DNA of 64,000 nt from Mariprofundus sp. KV (lineage in GTDB: Bacteria; Pseudomonadota; Zetaproteobacteria; Mariprofundales; Mariprofundaceae): positions 1-64,000 of the forward strand of contig NZ_VWNB01000005.1 of NCBI RefSeq assembly GCF_013387475.1. The letters are read 5' to 3'. Of this stretch, positions 49,014-59,608 are shown piece by piece. Under the pieces are notes generated by a model. The model was not told where the DNA came from, did not search any database, and worked only from the letters and a program-made list of their open reading frames with translations. Position 1 is the stretch's first letter, and each line of letters opens with the position of its first letter. A program made the translations under genes and the position numbers.

Positions 49014-51119
49014 CTAGGCCGGCTTGTGCATCACCTCATAGAGAACGGTTTTCAGCTCTTTGGCCTTAAACGGTTTCTGCAAAAAGGCATCAGGTCGATC
49101 ACCACAGACCAGTGTGCCCGCCTCCACTTCACTGTAACCGGAGACAAGAATAATCGGCACATGCGGATTGATCTGGCGCATGCCAGCCATCGCTTCAACG
49201 CCACCGAGCACCGGCATGGTCATATCCAGCAGCACAGCCACCAGATCATGGTGATGCTGTGCAAACTGCTCCAGCCCCTCTTTGCCATCGTCGGCAGTCA
49301 GCACATCAAAATTGAGCATCTCAATAAACGAACAGGCCACCGAACGCACGCGCAGATCATCATCAACCACAAGCACCCGGCCGTCACCTCGCCACGCCTC
49401 CACCTCCATGGTGGTCACCATCTTCTCTTTTACGGCTTGGTTGGTCGCAGGAAGATAGACGCGGAAGGCAGTGCCCTTGCCCGGCTCACTGAACATCTGA
49501 ATGGCACCTTTATGGCCGCAGACAATGCCAAGTACCGCGGAGAGGCCAAGGCCGCTACCGGTCTCCTTGGTGGTGAAGAAGGGATCAAAAATCTTCGTCT
49601 GCATCTCCGGATCGATTCCACAACCGTTATCACGAATCTCAATGGCGACAAACTCACCCTCATCCAGTTCAGAGCCGTTATACATCCGATCCAATACGTT
49701 ACGATCAATATGTTTAAAGCCGGTTGAAACCTTGATCTCGCCCGGCTCTTTGCCGATAGCATCAGCCGAATTGACAATAAAATTGAGAATCAACTGCTGA
49801 ATCTGGGCCATATCCCCCTCAATACCGGGAAGATGGCTATCAAGCTTCATTTTCAGAGAGATATTACTACTAACCGAGGCTCTGATCAGTTTGCCCATCG
49901 ACTTCACCATCTCGTTCAGGTTGAGCACCTCAAGCTCATAACTGCCCTTTCCGGCATAGGCCAGCATCTGCTTACAGAGCTCGGCGGCATGATCACAAGT
50001 GCCAACAATATTCTCGATATAACCGTGCAGAGGTGAATCGGGTTCAGCCTTGCCAATCGCCAATTCCGCATTGCCTGAGATCGCAGCCAGAAGGTTATTA
50101 AAATCGTGGGCAATACCACCGGCCAGAACACCGAGAGACTCCAGCCGCTGGGCATGCTCCAGCTGCGTTTTGAGGTTGTAGTGCTCTTCATCCTGACGCA
50201 TCCGCTCGGTCGCATCCTCCAGCGACACCAGGAAGGCAGGGATCCCCTCAATCCTGACAGGAGACGAGAGCAGCGAGCCAGCAAAGGAGCTGCCATCCTT
50301 TCTCACGATATGGATATCATAAAGTGGAATCGGCCTGCCGCTGTCACTCATGCGGTTGATGTTCTCTAACACCAGGCCATGATCCGAGGCATCAATATAA
50401 TCAAACAGCGAACTGCCGATCACCTCTTCAGCACCATCAGCGCCCAACAGAATAGCGGCATTGATATTGCAGTAGATCCATTTGCCATCACTATGCAGTG
50501 CTATGGCATGCGGCATCGCATCAAGCAGTTGGCGATGGCTCACCTTGCTTTCGGAAAGTGCAATTTCCCCCTGCCTCAGGAGAGATGATGTTTCATTCAG
50601 ACGAACGCCTTTAAGCTCTTCACTCTTCTCCCTTGAGAGCACCGTATAAACAGCGACGAGCGTGAAGGCAAAATAACCAAGACCGATATATACCAGCTTC
50701 TGCCACACAATTTCCTCAGATCCGATACCGAGCACTACAATGATCAGGGCATAGATCACTGTCCAGGCCAACCCAATGCGGGAACCAGCGCTCAGACATG
50801 CGACAAAAGGAAGGCCTAAGCTCCAGATAAAACCGATATCACTATAACCGCCCTGCAGAAACAGAAATGCAAAGAGGATCACCGGGTGTAAAATATAGAG
50901 ATGTTTGAGAACCGTTGAAGAAGGGCTACCTTTTCTGGCCCACCAATAGAGTGCGGAGAGCGTAAGCACCATCAGGAATTCGATTTGACTCAGGTCGAAA
51001 AGACCAAGTGTGAAATTGATCGTGGCAAAGATAAATACAAAAGGAATAGAGACAAGCATGGTGAGCAGAAGCGGATCCATCTGCATCACACTATGCTGTA
51101 TTCTACTCCAGTTCCCCAT
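49014..51119 (-). CDS. Membrane hybrid kinase: multi-TM N-terminus, PAS, HisKA, HATPase, REC
   Basis: 701 residues. About six hydrophobic helices (residues 15-175) form a membrane sensor. PAS (about 205-315, HAIALHSDGKWIYCNINAAILLG), HisKA with SLGVLAGGIAHDFNNLLAAISGNAELA, N box NFIVNSADA, G boxes DNGCGID and GSGLGLS, and a C-terminal REC with Asp in AVLLDMTMPVLGG follow. ATG 51119 has GGAGAGGTG upstream; the open frame to 51143 contains it. A 140-base gap separates it from the next kinase on the same strand. The PAS-kinase part is paralogous to that neighbour. Confidence 0.9.
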   Translation of the reverse strand: MGNWSRIQHSVMQMDPLLLTMLVSIPFVFIFATINFTLGLFDLSQIEFLMVLTLSALYWWARKGSPSSTVLKHLYILHPVILFAFLFLQGGYSDIGFIWSLGLPFVACLSAGSRIGLAWTVIYALIIVVLGIGSEEIVWQKLVYIGLGYFAFTLVAVYTVLSREKSEELKGVRLNETSSLLRQGEIALSESKVSHRQLLDAMPHAIALHSDGKWIYCNINAAILLGADGAEEVIGSSLFDYIDASDHGLVLENINRMSDSGRPIPLYDIHIVRKDGSSFAGSLLSSPVRIEGIPAFLVSLEDATERMRQDEEHYNLKTQLEHAQRLESLGVLAGGIAHDFNNLLAAISGNAELAIGKAEPDSPLHGYIENIVGTCDHAAELCKQMLAYAGKGSYELEVLNLNEMVKSMGKLIRASVSSNISLKMKLDSHLPGIEGDMAQIQQLILNFIVNSADAIGKEPGEIKVSTGFKHIDRNVLDRMYNGSELDEGEFVAIEIRDNGCGIDPEMQTKIFDPFFTTKETGSGLGLSAVLGIVCGHKGAIQMFSEPGKGTAFRVYLPATNQAVKEKMVTTMEVEAWRGDGRVLVVDDDLRVRSVACSFIEMLNFDVLTADDGKEGLEQFAQHHHDLVAVLLDMTMPVLGGVEAMAGMRQINPHVPIILVSGYSEVEAGTLVCGDRPDAFLQKPFKAKELKTVLYEVMHKPA

Positions 51120-51259
51120 GACCAGCACCTCTCCGTTCGCCAATGTAACTAAAAAACAGGCTGACTTTTTTAGAGTACCCCTAAGTTATAATCCTACTCA
51201 TCCACACCATAAACCAGTTGTAGCAAAATATTACTGTATTTGAAAGTATTGCGTCACCA

Positions 51260-53992
51260 TTACTGCAAGTGGTCGCTGTCCTCTTCAAATAAATTTCCTA
51301 TTTTCTCATGCAGAGCTTCGGGCGCGTATGGTTTCTGAAGGAATCCCGCCAGCCCCTGCCCGACAAAACGACTGGTTGCATCCTGCTCATTATAACCACT
51401 GGAAAGCATGACTTTCACATCAGGATTGATGCGGCGCAGTTCACGGAAACACTCTTTACCATCCATTTTCGGCATCGTCATATCAAGCAGCACAGCCACG
51501 ATCTCAGACTGATGTTTTCGATATATCTGCAAAGCATCCAAACCATCTACCGCACTTAGTGTTTTAAAGCCCATCTCCTCCAGCAGCATGATAGCAACTT
51601 CCCTGACCGTCTCCTCATCATCAACAACCAGAATAGTTCCACCGCTATGCCAGTATTTTGTTTCAACCTGACTGGCCTGCTGCAGGGCATAATCCTGTGA
51701 TGAGACCGGCAGCAGCACCTTGAATGTCGTACCTTTACCCACCTCGCTGTAGATGCGCAGTGCACCCTGATGGCCGCGCACAATACCCAACACCGCACTC
51801 ATACCCAGACCGCGACCGGTAAATTTGGTGGTAAAGAAGGGGTCAAAAATCTTATGCATCACAGCTGCATCCATACCACAACCGGTATCAGAAACCTCAA
51901 TAAATACGTAGCGCCCTTCCGGTAACTCCTGATCGGTGATGGTCTGGCTGAGATAGCTCCTGTCTGCATGCATCACACCGGTTGCAAAGGAGATCACACC
52001 GCTCTTGCTCCCAATCGCCTCATTGGCGTTGGTGATCAGGTTCAGAATAATCTGCTGCAACTGGGCCGCATCAGCCTCCACAGCAGGCAGGTTTTCTGCC
52101 AGATGGTATTTGATCACCACATTTTTCTCGATGGACACCTCCATCAGCCGGGTCATCTCCTCAACCAGGTGTGACAGATCAACAGCCTGAACAACAAACT
52201 TACCTTTACCGGAATAGGCCAGCATCTGCTTACAGAGATCAGATGCGCGCTGCGTGGAGGTCTCAATGCGGGCGAGAAACTCTCTGGCCGGGGAGGCCTC
52301 ATCGATATTTCGTCCTGCCAGGGCCGCATTGCCCATCACCGCAGTCAGAATATTGTTAAAATCGTGGGCAATACCGCCAGCCAGGATGCCGAGAGACTCA
52401 AGCCGCTGCACATGCTCCATCTTCTCCTGTTGCAACAGTTTTTTCTGCTCTTCCACTACCTGCTCGGTGATCTCCTGCACTGTACCGATAGAGGTCAGAG
52501 GCCTGCCCTCTGCATCGCATTCGGTTTCACAGCGCTCCCGCACATATTTAATGCGACCATCATCAAACAGCAGTCGGTGCCTTACATCATAGCCGACCGA
52601 CTGCTCAAGATGTCTTGCATATGCACTGCTCACCCTCTCTCTATCATCCGGATGGATGGTCGCAACAAATGCTTCGTATGAGGCACCAAATTCAGTCTGC
52701 TCTATCTCAAAAATACGGTAAACCTCATCCGACCACCACAACTCATTACTGGTTAGATCAAGCTGCCAGCTGCCGACATGCGCCACGCTCTGGGCGGCCA
52801 GCAGATGCTGCTGCATCTTCCTCGCTTCATGCTCAGCCTCAACTCGCTTAGTCACATCACGAATCACCGTCATCGCTGCCATGCTTCCCTGATCCCGGAA
52901 CGGAATTCCCTGCACCTCAGCCTTAAATTCACTGCCATCAAGCCGCAAAATCCCCTGCAGCATCAATGGAGCAGGCAAGGCATCATCCACCTCTTTGCGA
53001 ATCCGTTCTGACACCTGATCACGCAGATCTAAATGGACTCGTTCAATCACAGGCGTGCCGATCACCTCATCCTCAGCTTGCGCGCCAAACATCATCAGCA
53101 TGGCAGGATTACAGTAGACCCAGCGCCCATCCCTGTGAATACCGACACCGTCCGGAATAAGATCAAACAGGAGCTGGAAGCGATTTTCACTCTCACTCAG
53201 TTGCAGCGCTGCCCGCTGCCGTGCAATAAGTAGCAGCAGCAGATAGAGCAGCAGCACAATAGCCAATGCTGCCAGCAGATACTGGTTACGTTTATTCTCC
53301 TCAACCCTGGCAGCGAAATAGCGGTCATAGGCAGCTGAAAGTTCCCTTGCATTCTCTGCTGTACCACAGGTAACCACTGTATTAATAGCGTCAATAACTT
53401 GTGGTGAATAATTCAGAATGACCTGCAGATGGCGATGCAGTTTTTTCAACCCCAGCGCTTTAGTTCTGTTTAAGCCACGTTGAATTCGAGCTTTGGCATC
53501 CTGATCGTTGGGGTAGATACTCCACTGAAATACATCACGATTGAGCTCGGTAAGCCATTGATAATGTTCGGGATAATCTGCTTGCAGCTGTGAAACTAGC
53601 GTAGGTATGTAACGCAGTGAGTTGGATAAAATGGCATAAGAGGCCTTAAAGTCTGATGCGCCCTGCAGCTGGATCTGAGCCGATGTTTTCAGTGCAACAA
53701 GATGATCATCAAACTCACTATTATTAGAGAGTTGCAGGGTGAGCTCTCTGCTGAGACTGTTCAACTCAGCCAGATCCCTGCTCATCAGGTCATAATTAAA
53801 GAGGTTCCTGCTATAGACCTGCAACATATTCTGCTCGGACTGGGCATCAAGATGCTCCAGCCGCTCCAGCATATAGTGAATATTGTGTGGTTCATTGGCA
53901 TCAAAGCGCTGAACGTTGATCAACTGCATCACCAGCAGCATGCCCAGGCAGGTAATCAACAGAACATGCACTTTCAATGAAACAGTTTTCAC
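51260..53992 (-). CDS. Membrane hybrid kinase with DAHL-like sensor, two PAS, HisKA, HATPase, REC
   Basis: 910 residues. One TM at the N-terminus, then a helical extracytoplasmic region of about 220 residues and a second TM (YLLAALAIVLLLYLLLLLIA). The helical region (LSNSLRYIPTLVSQLQADYP) resembles the double all-helical DAHL sensor. PAS at about 265-385 (IPDGVGIHRDGRWVYCNPAML) and at about 400-515 with a following PAC. HisKA SLGILAGGIAHDFNNILTAVMGNAALA, N box NLITNANEA, REC Asp in AVLLDMTMPKMDG. GTG start overlaps the peroxidase stop (GTGA), so the peroxidase and kinase are coupled. Confidence 0.9.
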   Translation of the reverse strand: MKTVSLKVHVLLITCLGMLLVMQLINVQRFDANEPHNIHYMLERLEHLDAQSEQNMLQVYSRNLFNYDLMSRDLAELNSLSRELTLQLSNNSEFDDHLVALKTSAQIQLQGASDFKASYAILSNSLRYIPTLVSQLQADYPEHYQWLTELNRDVFQWSIYPNDQDAKARIQRGLNRTKALGLKKLHRHLQVILNYSPQVIDAINTVVTCGTAENARELSAAYDRYFAARVEENKRNQYLLAALAIVLLLYLLLLLIARQRAALQLSESENRFQLLFDLIPDGVGIHRDGRWVYCNPAMLMMFGAQAEDEVIGTPVIERVHLDLRDQVSERIRKEVDDALPAPLMLQGILRLDGSEFKAEVQGIPFRDQGSMAAMTVIRDVTKRVEAEHEARKMQQHLLAAQSVAHVGSWQLDLTSNELWWSDEVYRIFEIEQTEFGASYEAFVATIHPDDRERVSSAYARHLEQSVGYDVRHRLLFDDGRIKYVRERCETECDAEGRPLTSIGTVQEITEQVVEEQKKLLQQEKMEHVQRLESLGILAGGIAHDFNNILTAVMGNAALAGRNIDEASPAREFLARIETSTQRASDLCKQMLAYSGKGKFVVQAVDLSHLVEEMTRLMEVSIEKNVVIKYHLAENLPAVEADAAQLQQIILNLITNANEAIGSKSGVISFATGVMHADRSYLSQTITDQELPEGRYVFIEVSDTGCGMDAAVMHKIFDPFFTTKFTGRGLGMSAVLGIVRGHQGALRIYSEVGKGTTFKVLLPVSSQDYALQQASQVETKYWHSGGTILVVDDEETVREVAIMLLEEMGFKTLSAVDGLDALQIYRKHQSEIVAVLLDMTMPKMDGKECFRELRRINPDVKVMLSSGYNEQDATSRFVGQGLAGFLQKPYAPEALHEKIGNLFEEDSDHLQ

Positions 53993-55719: not shown

Positions 55720-55836
55720 GCATCCCCTCCTATTCAAAACTTGAACAGCAGACTAGCGATTCAGGAGCCATTCGGCAAAGAGAGGAGAAGGCATGTCAGA
55801 TTTGCCGTAACCCCTCTTAACCCCTACTCTGCCGCC

Positions 55837-56562
55837 ATGCCTGAAAGTGTAGCTACAAGCGATATTGTCCTCACCGGACTGGTGCTGTTCGGCATCCTGC
55901 AACTGTCCTGGTTTTCGGTCATGCTGCTACGCCGTGGTGCTCCTGCCGAGACCATCCAACAGGCACTGCCGCCGATCTTTTCGATCTGGGTGCTGATGTG
56001 GCCGGTCTATATTGATGCCAGCTGGTTATGGGCAGGGCTGATTGCACTGCTCATCCTCAGCCTTGTCGCGACCAGCTTGAAGAGGCCTTTTTTTCACCAT
56101 TTAAGGATAGCCTGGAGCCCTGTTGTGGAAGAGACCGGCATAGCCGTGTCGCAGCGCCCCCTGCTAATGCCGCTCACCCACACCATCACCGCCCTGCTCA
56201 TCGCCTCTCTCTGGTTTCAGGCGATCCCTGAGTTCGGCTTCGGACTGGCTTTATGTTTCTGTATCGCTTTTCCGGCAGCCTACTGGGTAGACCAGCTTGC
56301 CACCCGGAGATTCAACCACCGCACACTTGGCTTTCCCGCCCACCCTGATCAGACGCTGGCAGGTCACATCACGCTGATAGCCGTCTCTACAGCCCTGCTC
56401 TGCTGGGCACTACATGTCTACCACGGAACCGCCTGGCAAGCACTATTGATCGCCACGCTGATAGCAGCCATGACAGCATCCGCCACACGGGCGCTGTTTC
56501 CCGGACGCTGGAATGGCCCGGCTACAATGCTGACCAGCGGCTTTGTCATGTGGCTGTTATAA
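55837..56562 (+). CDS. Unknown polytopic membrane protein
   Basis: 241 residues with about seven hydrophobic helices and no motif that I can name. YWVDQLATRRFNHRTLGFPAHPDQTLAGHITLIAVS is faintly like the CTP-dependent polyprenol/phytol kinase pattern, but the usual GD and K residues are missing; I do not rely on it. ATG 55837 (MPESVATSD) is chosen because the upstream open frame to 55741 is not membrane-like; no SD is visible. Confidence 0.55.
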   Translation: MPESVATSDIVLTGLVLFGILQLSWFSVMLLRRGAPAETIQQALPPIFSIWVLMWPVYIDASWLWAGLIALLILSLVATSLKRPFFHHLRIAWSPVVEETGIAVSQRPLLMPLTHTITALLIASLWFQAIPEFGFGLALCFCIAFPAAYWVDQLATRRFNHRTLGFPAHPDQTLAGHITLIAVSTALLCWALHVYHGTAWQALLIATLIAAMTASATRALFPGRWNGPATMLTSGFVMWLL

Positions 56563-56701: not shown

Positions 56702-57271
56702 ATGGCAGTAGATATTTCATGGATGGAGAAGAGCATCCTCAAGCGAGAACTCACCGCTTCCGAGCGCAGTGCACTGAACTGCCTCACCGTATCCAATATC
56801 GCTTCAGGCGAAAAGATCATCACTGAAGGACAGGCTGGCGGCACGCTGGAGATCATGCGTTCAGGCAAAGCCAAGGTTGAGGATAACAATCGCTATGAAG
56901 GGCGCGTTATTCTTGCCGAGATTGAAGCAGGCACCATCTTTGGTGAACTCAGCTTCCTGAACAACAAACGCAGAAGTGCGGACGTGACCGCCCTTGAGAA
57001 CTGTGTGATCTACACGCTTGCCCACGATGATTTTACAGAGCTGATGAAAAACCATCATGAACTGGCCTACACGATTCTCACAGCCATCATGGATCGTCAG
57101 ACCAGTGTGATCATGTCGCAGCGCGTCACCCTTGCTCCACTGCTGCGCACTCTCAAAGACAAAGCCCAGAAGCTGCCGCTGTTTATCAAGGTTGCGCCGC
57201 TGGTCTTTATCGTGCTCTATATCATGGCCTTCTTTTTTATCTCATGGAAGGATTTCAATTACGGCGGTTAA
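56702..57271 (+). CDS. Membrane-anchored cyclic-nucleotide-binding protein without DNA-binding domain
   Basis: 189 residues. A cNMP-binding beta-barrel (about 15-130) with phosphate-binding cassette FGELSFLNNKRRSADVTA, having the Glu and Arg used to hold cyclic nucleotides. No helix-turn-helix follows; instead a helix and one C-terminal TM (APLVFIVLYIMAFFFISW, about 165-182) anchor it to the inner membrane. SD AGGAGA precedes the ATG. It may be a receptor tied to the CpdA-cyclase pair that converges on it. Confidence 0.85.
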   Translation: MAVDISWMEKSILKRELTASERSALNCLTVSNIASGEKIITEGQAGGTLEIMRSGKAKVEDNNRYEGRVILAEIEAGTIFGELSFLNNKRRSADVTALENCVIYTLAHDDFTELMKNHHELAYTILTAIMDRQTSVIMSQRVTLAPLLRTLKDKAQKLPLFIKVAPLVFIVLYIMAFFFISWKDFNYGG

Positions 57272-57297
57272 TGCATATCCGGCATGGCCATCAAAAC

Positions 57298-57329
57298 AAA
57301 CGGGCGCTCTCTGAGCGCCCGTTTTCGTT
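57298..57329. terminator. Terminator after the cNMP-binding gene
   Basis: CGGGCGCTC (57301-57309), TCT loop, GAGCGCCCG (57313-57321), then TTTTCGTTT. Between convergent genes; the minus side is flanked by AAACAAA, so it may work both ways. Confidence 0.9.
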
Positions 57330-57401
57330 TGACTTTCTTTTATACGAAGTCGCAGCCAGTCATTTTCACTCTGGTTTTAACAACCCTTTCGGGAGCGCTG
57401 T

Positions 57402-58193
57402 TTAGTAGGGATCCTTATTGTTCAGATCGGGTGGAATGAAACCTTCAACGCGTTCAACAGCGGTCTGGATCTCGCCACTGTCGAGCAACCTGATCCAGCG
57501 ATAGCCGGGGGATTTGTTGTCCATGCCGAAATCGTCACTTCTGGGGCGGAACTGGATACAGGTGGAGGGGGATCCAAGCACACGCACACCCTCGTGAAAG
57601 GTATCAAAAGCCTGATGAATATGGCCACAAAGCAGCACCTTCACCTGCGCATAATCGGCAATCAGATCCCAGAGCACTTCACTGTTTTCAAGGCTGATAT
57701 CATCCAGCCAGCGACTACCTATATCACAAGCATGGTGGTGCAGTGCAATCAGCGTGTATTTATCCGCTGTGGCCTCAAGGATGGTTCTCAGGCGCTCCAA
57801 CTCATCAACGGCCAGGAAGCCTGAGATCGTACCTGTCCTGTGGGAGTTAAGCGTAATCACCTGCCAGAGGCCAAGATCAAGATGGTCACTGTAGGATGCG
57901 CAGGATCTCAGCGCCGGAATCAGGGAACCTCGAAGCGCACCCAGATTGGCATGGTTACCCGGCGAGATCATCACCGGTGCACACCACGGCAGCATTGCCG
58001 CTACCTTGGCATAGGTTGCTACAGCTTCATCCTGCGCCATATCACCACCGAGAACCACAACATCAGGGTCAGGGTAATGGCGGTGAGCCGCCTCCAGAAC
58101 CGCCGCATAGCTCTCAACCGGGCGCACACCCTTGAGCTCACCGACCGGATCATCATAGAGATGCGCATCGGAGATATGCAGTAACAGACTCAT
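57402..58193 (-). CDS. cpdA: CpdA-like 3',5'-cyclic-nucleotide phosphodiesterase
   Basis: 263 residues, class III (CpdA/metallophosphoesterase) fold. Metal motifs HISDAHL, GGDMAQDE, GNHAN, ALHHHACDIG and CGHIHQ, plus GSPSTCIQFRP, are typical of CpdA; the usual GNHD reads GNHA. Probable hydrolase of cAMP or another cyclic nucleotide. The start overlaps the cyclase stop by 4 bp (ATGA), so synthesis and breakdown enzymes are made together. Confidence 0.88.
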   Translation of the reverse strand: MSLLLHISDAHLYDDPVGELKGVRPVESYAAVLEAAHRHYPDPDVVVLGGDMAQDEAVATYAKVAAMLPWCAPVMISPGNHANLGALRGSLIPALRSCASYSDHLDLGLWQVITLNSHRTGTISGFLAVDELERLRTILEATADKYTLIALHHHACDIGSRWLDDISLENSEVLWDLIADYAQVKVLLCGHIHQAFDTFHEGVRVLGSPSTCIQFRPRSDDFGMDNKSPGYRWIRLLDSGEIQTAVERVEGFIPPDLNNKDPY

Positions 58194-59608
58194 GACAGCG
58201 CATTCTCTGCCAGCAACCGGCTGACTAATATTTCGGCCTCAGCCGGAATGTAGGTGATACAGACATGAACATGCAAAGGATCATCGGAGATCTGTCGAAT
58301 GACTTTGACATAGAGATCTGACGCATCGGCCAGAGTCAGCTTCAGACTGCTCAGCAGTGGACACTCCTGCTCCACCTGCATATCAAACACCGCCGCATTC
58401 AAGGCCAATATTTTTCCGGCAAATCGCTCACGGGCAAACTTACCCTCAAGCAGGGAGACACTCACGTCCACAGGATTGCTTAATGCGATGAACGGCTCAT
58501 CCCTCTTATCCGGCAGCAGCAGCTCTTCATCACCATAGACACCGCCGACATCGTAAATCGTCATCTCTTCAGTAATGCCTTTGGGCATCACCTGCAACTC
58601 ATTATCGATACGCAGCAACACATCACAAGCGTTACGGGTCGCTTCAGAGATCAGAATCTGGCCACCTACGGTATAGGACTCAATCCTTGATGTTGTATTC
58701 ACAACGCGGCCGACAACGGCATATTTACTGCGTTTTTTCGAACCAATATTGCCGACAATGGCAGCCCCGCTGTTTACTCCGATACCCATCTGCACCTTGG
58801 GATAACCCTTCTGCTGATAAATGCGATTTACCGCCCCCATCGCCAGCTGCATCTCTACCGCACAACGCACTGCACGTGTGGCATCATCCTCGCGCTGAAT
58901 CGGCGCACCGAAAATGGCCAGTACAGCATCACCGATAATCTCATCGATGGTACCCAGATATTTCTGGATCACCTCGGTCATCTCAGCCAGGTAGATATTG
59001 ATCATATCCACCACGGTTTCAGCAGGCAGCCGCTCACCAATGGAGGTAAAACCTCTGAGGTCAGCCATCAGCACTGTCACATCCCGCTTCTCTCCACCCA
59101 GTTTCAGACCGTGCGGCGAATCGATCAGGCTGTCGACAATCTCCTCAGAGAGATAACGACCGAAGGTGTCGCGGATAAATCGGTATGCTGAGCGCAGTTT
59201 AAGATGGGTCTCAACGCGGGCATGCACAATCGCAGGGGTGATCGGCTTACTGATATAATCAACTGCGCCCATCTCAAATCCCAGCACCTCATCATGGGTC
59301 TCGTTCATGGCGGTCACAAAGATCACCGGAATACCCTCTGTGCGGGGATCGGCTTTCAGGCGACGACACACCTCATAGCCATCCATGCCGGGCATCATAA
59401 TATCCAGCAGGATCAGATCAGGTGCCTTATCGGAGAAGCAGCGCTGCAGCGCCTGCTCACCATTGATCGCCACCCTGACGGTATAGATCGACTTCAGCAC
59501 GCCACGCAGCACATCAATATTTTCAGGGGTATCATCAACAACCAGAATGGTTGCCTTCTCCGGTTGCGTCGCGGTCGCGTTTTCACCGCTCTGTATATCA
59601 CTGCTCAT
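58190..59608 (-). CDS. Response-regulator class III nucleotidyl cyclase
   Basis: 472 residues. REC at about 20-140 with Asp in LILLDIMMPGMDG and IFVTA...YISKP. The cyclase homology domain (about 180-355) has metal Asp in VLMADLRGFTS and IIGDAVLAIFG, and the transition-state Asn/Arg in VVNTTSRIES. The nucleotide-specificity pair is unusual: E where adenylyl cyclases have K (IDEIIGDAV), and R where they have D (YAVVGRVVN). The C-terminal 100 residues look like a degenerate PilZ-like barrel. ATG 59608 (MSSDIQSGE); a TTG at 59653 also opens the frame. Substrate cannot be assumed to be ATP. Confidence 0.88.
   Translation of the reverse strand: MSSDIQSGENATATQPEKATILVVDDTPENIDVLRGVLKSIYTVRVAINGEQALQRCFSDKAPDLILLDIMMPGMDGYEVCRRLKADPRTEGIPVIFVTAMNETHDEVLGFEMGAVDYISKPITPAIVHARVETHLKLRSAYRFIRDTFGRYLSEEIVDSLIDSPHGLKLGGEKRDVTVLMADLRGFTSIGERLPAETVVDMINIYLAEMTEVIQKYLGTIDEIIGDAVLAIFGAPIQREDDATRAVRCAVEMQLAMGAVNRIYQQKGYPKVQMGIGVNSGAAIVGNIGSKKRSKYAVVGRVVNTTSRIESYTVGGQILISEATRNACDVLLRIDNELQVMPKGITEEMTIYDVGGVYGDEELLLPDKRDEPFIALSNPVDVSVSLLEGKFARERFAGKILALNAAVFDMQVEQECPLLSSLKLTLADASDLYVKVIRQISDDPLHVHVCITYIPAEAEILVSRLLAENALS

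Follow-up and report, generated by a model that had tools for sequence, protein, structure and literature searches.

Few cases of bacterial cGMP signalling are known, and the way in which the signal ends is poorly described; since a cell usually has numerous cyclases but only a small number of phosphodiesterases, which of them go together is mostly an open question. The locus described here, located in a window of 64,000 nucleotides from Mariprofundus sp. KV, raises the question of which of its genes for making, degrading and binding a cyclic nucleotide belong together, and which nucleotide they handle. The first-pass annotation had presented a compact circuit composed of a REC-cyclase, a CpdA-like hydrolase and a membrane receptor, and the reading frames together with their Pfam and NCBIfam domains confirm the three genes and their positions. 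The first (58190..59608 with the stop included, minus strand) encodes a protein of 472 aa comprised of a REC domain (PF00072, E 3.4e-26), a class III cyclase domain (PF00211, E 3e-26) and a PilZ-like tail; the second (57402..58193, minus strand) encodes a putative CpdA-like class III cyclic-nucleotide phosphodiesterase of the calcineurin-like type of 263 aa (NCBIfam PRK11148 (CpdA), E 1.3e-64); and the third (56702..57271, plus strand) encodes a protein of 189 aa, which combines a CNB domain (residues 33-118; PF00027, E 1.5e-18) with a C-terminal hydrophobic anchor.

The stop of the cyclase gene and the start of the cpdA-like gene share the ATGA at 58190..58193 (minus strand), the coupling which the first-pass annotation had pointed out. 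An overlap of four bases (ATGA or GTGA) was seen in six examined cases, namely the window and five other genomes or loci (G001, G008, G012, G003 and L109), while other junctions overlap or are spaced by a few bases, with approximately 100 bases in G016, G019 and G020. Read from the sequence, this overlap is a translational coupling of cyclase and CpdA. The CNB gene is convergent to both, literally as annotated, and is separated from the cpdA-like gene by a terminator-like hairpin of 12 pairs (57298..57324, no strand assigned); the scan returned this single hairpin versus 1.9 in shuffled sequences, a count that is not significant, and its position is apt. Because of the opposite direction and the hairpin in between, the CNB gene is probably not part of the transcript of the two enzymes. 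The chromosomal order rpiA - membrane protein - [CNB] - CpdA - cyclase - nadC - birA - coaX forms a stable block, a housekeeping neighbourhood that is unlike a mobile defence island. The membrane protein adjoining rpiA (273 aa; window 55741-56562) is conserved genus-wide and matches neither a Pfam nor an NCBIfam family. Near the pair (window 49014-53992) are genes for two hybrid histidine kinases with PAS domains, which may be candidate partners of the REC domain.

The conservation of this organization was scrutinized in 78 genomes of the order, using cut-offs of E <= 1e-100 for the cyclase, E <= 1e-40 for CpdA and E <= 1e-35 for the CNB membrane protein, which are carried by 21, 29 and 9 genomes, respectively. 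Cyclase and CpdA are both present in 18 of the 78 genomes, and in each of these 18 they are adjacent and on the same strand, over a range of 50-93% protein identity; the 18 cases share ancestry and represent one family, not 18 independent events. This adjacency is beyond chance. A cyclase with no CpdA detected was found in G005, G021 and G035, which are drafts with 87-93% completeness. Against the refuting condition set in the first-pass annotation, a lack of synteny of the three genes elsewhere, the two-gene claim stands, and the three-gene claim largely fails, since synteny with the CNB gene is confined to one clade of seven genomes.

In five Mariprofundaceae the two enzymes are fused, a REC-cyclase-PilZ-like-CpdA protein with a linker being encoded by a single continuous frame (G004, G017, G018, G022 and L114/G062; loci L089 5-9 kb, L090 5.8-8 kb, L040, L091 and L114 2034-4208). 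These frames span 744, 797, 772, 749 and 735 codons, respectively, counted from stop to stop, the proteins being somewhat shorter. The fused forms group on one side of a branch in both the cyclase and the CpdA tree (moderate support, two long branches), and since they come from several assemblies and group in both trees, a sequencing error is unlikely to be the source of the fusion. Among the 112 CpdA-bearing Pseudomonadota in a sample of 398 genomes, frames of more than 700 codons are confined to the five Mariprofundaceae, and no other frame is longer than 462 codons. The cyclase type itself is widespread, the species collection containing 350 or more relatives. In the best 80 relative loci, CpdA adjoins the cyclase only in Mariprofundus and near relatives, and none of these loci outside the Zetaproteobacteria has a CpdA beside this cyclase type; the coupling is therefore an innovation of this group, added to a cyclase that is itself common. 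A second copy of the cyclase is located elsewhere in G003, G010, G013 and G005, and no CpdA adjoins it in G003, G010 and G013, the three genomes in which positions were compared.

The REC domain of the window cyclase (residues 21-132; 59213..59548, minus strand) has all response-regulator residues intact: the acidic pair D25 and D26, the phospho-acceptor D69, T99 and K121, which are invariant in 14 orthologues. Its class III catalytic domain (residues 171-359; 58532..59098, minus strand) is identical to that of the Synechocystis guanylyl cyclase Cya2 (2w01) at 97 of 191 aligned residues (51%), and contains the metal ligands D183 and D227, the purine-site pair E223 and A297, and the transition-state residues N304 and R308; D183, E223, D227, N304 and R308 are invariant in an alignment of 45 relatives. 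At the first purine-specificity site, adenylyl cyclases have Lys and guanylyl cyclases Glu, and at the second site adenylyl cyclases have Asp or Thr. Column alignment with Cya2 places E223 (codon 58940..58942, minus strand) at the first site and A297 (codon 58718..58720, minus strand), supported also by the relatives, at the second, so that window cyclase and Cya2 read E/E and A/G in the two columns. A297, the equivalent of Asp1018 of adenylyl cyclase, is positioned within Y-x-V-V-G. The first-pass annotation had read this pair as E and R: its Glu stands, and its Arg is R301, four residues downstream, a register error that led us to discard the E/R pair.

Among the best 80 relative loci, the purine pair is E-G in 64 and E-A in 16. 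The same genome encodes nine class III cyclases, and the window REC-cyclase is the sole one with an E-A/E-G pair, the remaining eight having K-T, K-D or degenerate purine sites. In guanylyl cyclases, Glu is combined with Cys, Ser, Thr, His, Ala or Gly, and Cya2 is of the E-G type (PMC4215837). Based on the E-A/E-G pair, the 51% identity to Cya2 and the unique occurrence of such a pair among the nine cyclases, cGMP is the leading prediction, and the product is probably cGMP, perhaps with cAMP, this being likelier than an unusual nucleotide. Of the proposal of cGMP or a less usual cyclic nucleotide, the former half is plausible and the latter is not supported. The cCMP cyclase EaPycC uses F100, R142 and Q144 (PMC11224242); its R142 precedes the second metal Asp by four residues, and because Glu (E223) occupies that place in the window cyclase, a pyrimidine product is unlikely. 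Two cyclase-like genes of G000 were noted in addition: L185 (contig C1, approximately 37.9 kb) encodes a class III cyclase-like protein with a ferredoxin-like Cys-rich segment N-terminal to it and degenerate purine-site residues, and L187 (contig C22, approximately 14.2 kb) a membrane protein whose degenerate cyclase domain lacks the usual metal and Asn/Arg motifs and which is possibly a pseudo-enzyme.

The C-terminal tail of the cyclase (residues 372-472; 58193..58495, minus strand), already annotated as PilZ-like, is a PilZ-like beta-barrel according to structure modelling. An AlphaFold model built from an alignment of 45 tails reached a mean pLDDT of 94.2, and the structures ranked highest by Foldseek are PilZ domains (3kyf with E 2.4e-3 at a probability of 1.00; TM 0.5-0.7 for the PilZ structures), the E-values being modest and the probability high; the tail is also well folded in the model of the full-length cyclase (pLDDT 84.5, pTM 0.64). 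Pfam PilZ matches are weak and occur in six of the 45 family members (best E 0.0055); the tail of the window protein matched no Pfam family, and a PDB sequence search with it returned nothing. Binding of c-di-GMP by the tail is not expected, since both c-di-GMP motifs (RxxxR and D/NxSxxG) are absent from it, and the tail is probably a linker, dimerisation or docking module, not a c-di-GMP sensor.

CpdA enzymes are best known for cAMP as their substrate. Similar to E. coli CpdA, the predicted partner enzyme is a class III phosphodiesterase, matching PRK11148 over residues 4-251 with 218.3 bits, which is just below the equivalog cut-off of 225; it differs from the E. coli enzyme in this score and in being coupled or fused to a cyclase. 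It has the calcineurin-like fold (PF00149), with the metal ligands D9, H11, D51, N80, H81, H191 and H193 invariant in 18 homologues.

We consider it probable that the REC-cyclase and CpdA constitute one signalling unit, in which a Cya2-type cyclase would be controlled by phosphorylation and the coupled CpdA would remove its product. A sensor kinase would phosphorylate D69 of the REC domain, and this would shift the arrangement of the cyclase dimer and switch on the formation of cGMP, perhaps accompanied by some cAMP. The coupled or fused CpdA would hydrolyse this product, resulting in short or local pulses instead of a lasting rise, and fusion or coupled translation would fix the ratio of the two enzymes and keep them together. 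The tail-anchored CNB protein is an optional neighbour in one sub-clade and possibly, but not necessarily, a reader of the signal.

Bifunctional GGDEF-EAL and Rel/Spo enzymes unite the synthesis and the degradation of a messenger in a single polypeptide. Somewhat more tentatively, the family described here might be a cyclic-mononucleotide counterpart of GGDEF-EAL proteins, with a phospho-controlled guanylyl cyclase and its own CpdA in one polypeptide generating self-limiting cGMP pulses, and with the two enzymes of the family being either separate (ATGA-coupled) or fused; messengers and folds differ, a class III cyclase being combined here with a calcineurin-like phosphodiesterase. Cya2, which shares the Glu at the first purine site, has Gly instead of Ala at the second and Tyr where the window cyclase has Ser307, and the N-terminal REC domain, the PilZ-like tail and the CpdA partner are features of the window system. 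In the XC_0250/XC_0249 cGMP pathway of Xanthomonas, the partner of a class III guanylate cyclase is a receptor of the CNB-GGDEF type (PMC3770947). As with the predicted guanylyl cyclase of the window, a gene for a CNB-domain protein is found next to the cyclase, but the Xanthomonas cyclase has TPR repeats where REC is found here, the receptor is of the CNB-GGDEF and not of the CNB-TM type, and no phosphodiesterase is mentioned (PMC3770947), whereas CpdA is present here. The plant enzyme CAPE carries cyclase and phosphodiesterase in one polypeptide (PMC5159850), as do the five fused relatives; it is, however, eukaryotic, makes cAMP, and has its phosphodiesterase N-terminal, as a conserved-His catalytic domain for which no calcineurin-like fold is reported (PMC5159850). 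In the open-access literature we came across no class III cyclase of a bacterium that is fused to a phosphodiesterase; the parts are known, and it is their arrangement, the bacterial coupling and fusion of cyclase and CpdA, that is new.

The first-pass annotation had also cast the CNB protein as a dedicated reader, which would turn the locus into a three-part circuit with a specific membrane receptor for the product of the neighbouring enzymes. Its description of the protein is accurate, as there is a single C-terminal hydrophobic segment (residues ~162-180, mean Kyte-Doolittle 2.5) and no C-terminal helix-turn-helix of the CRP/FNR type was found, and the GE and R-S/T-A residues of the phosphate-binding cassette are present in the window protein; it may be a cyclic-nucleotide receptor. 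The gene is tight to the pair in four genomes (G000, G016, G019 and G020) and keeps to one side of the pair throughout the clade of seven genomes, but it is missing from 11 of the 18 genomes with the pair. In three genomes the site between the CNB and cpdA-like genes has taken insertions: in G001 both contigs end there, one of them within the final codons of an IS110 transposase remnant (L082 8019-8138, end of L081); G008 has 3.1 kb with genes that, named by eye, encode an acetyltransferase-like protein, a small protein and an RsgA-like GTPase; and G012 has 13.5 kb. In G027 and G023, CNB orthologues are found among unrelated genes and have no close cyclase homologue with them, and the Arg of the cassette that contacts the phosphate is replaced by Lys in G008 and G012 and by Thr in G023. 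The convergent orientation and the likely terminator also speak against a common circuit, and with 17 CNB-domain matches and nine cyclases in the genome, proximity of a CNB gene by itself says little. The protein's only tie to the cyclase is its location in one clade, its linkage to the pair beyond chance is weakly indicated, and we regard a dedicated three-part circuit as unlikely. Base specificity of the CNB domain was sought through the S128/T127 positions of CRP; the C-helix alignment is ambiguous, and this approach gave no prediction.

Less easily set aside, though still improbable in our judgement, is that the main product is cAMP, or that cAMP is formed together with cGMP, and that the pair tunes the general cAMP-CRP network. 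Cya2 has a similar affinity for ATP and GTP (PMC4215837), so that by analogy an E-G pair need not shut out ATP, CpdA is by family a cAMP phosphodiesterase, and the genome encodes several K-T and K-D adenylyl cyclases as well as a CRP-like regulator (L188; G000 contig C11, approximately 110 kb) retaining the E. coli CRP ligand residues R82, S83, T127 and S128, because of which a cAMP-CRP branch probably also exists. However, all relatives have the invariant Glu and not the Lys of adenylyl cyclases, and it is the E-to-K version of a Cya2-type domain that is deposited as an adenylate cyclase (6fht). That CpdA is the general phosphodiesterase of the cell, merely sharing a transcript with the cyclase, would agree with the single CpdA homologue found in the genome, which could serve all nine predicted cyclases, and with the presence of CpdA without this cyclase in G007 and other genera; the conserved overlap and the fusion to this particular cyclase make such a convenience of the operon quite improbable. 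Pycsar anti-phage systems (PycC with PycTM or PycTIR), finally, likewise have a class III cyclase with a CNB membrane protein nearby, recalling in outline PycC with PycTM, and PADLOC PycC models match the cyclase domain, but these matches are limited to the class III domain, which is generic, none of the PycTM models matches, PycTIR models match only by their CNB part in a protein that has no TIR, and where the CTP cyclase has Arg (PMC11224242) the window cyclase has E223. With the pyrimidine-site residues missing, a CpdA partner, a REC input and the stable neighbourhood of rpiA, nadC, birA and coaX, an unusual cyclic pyrimidine acting on a membrane effector is extremely improbable, and membership in Pycsar was rejected on the specificity residue and the missing PycTM effector.

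The reading of maker and breaker as a pair, strongly supported by the adjacency in 18 of 18 genomes and by the five fusions, remains the one that we prefer. Such a conserved and sometimes fused pair is a self-contained unit that can be tested, and it tells which phosphodiesterase goes with which cyclase.
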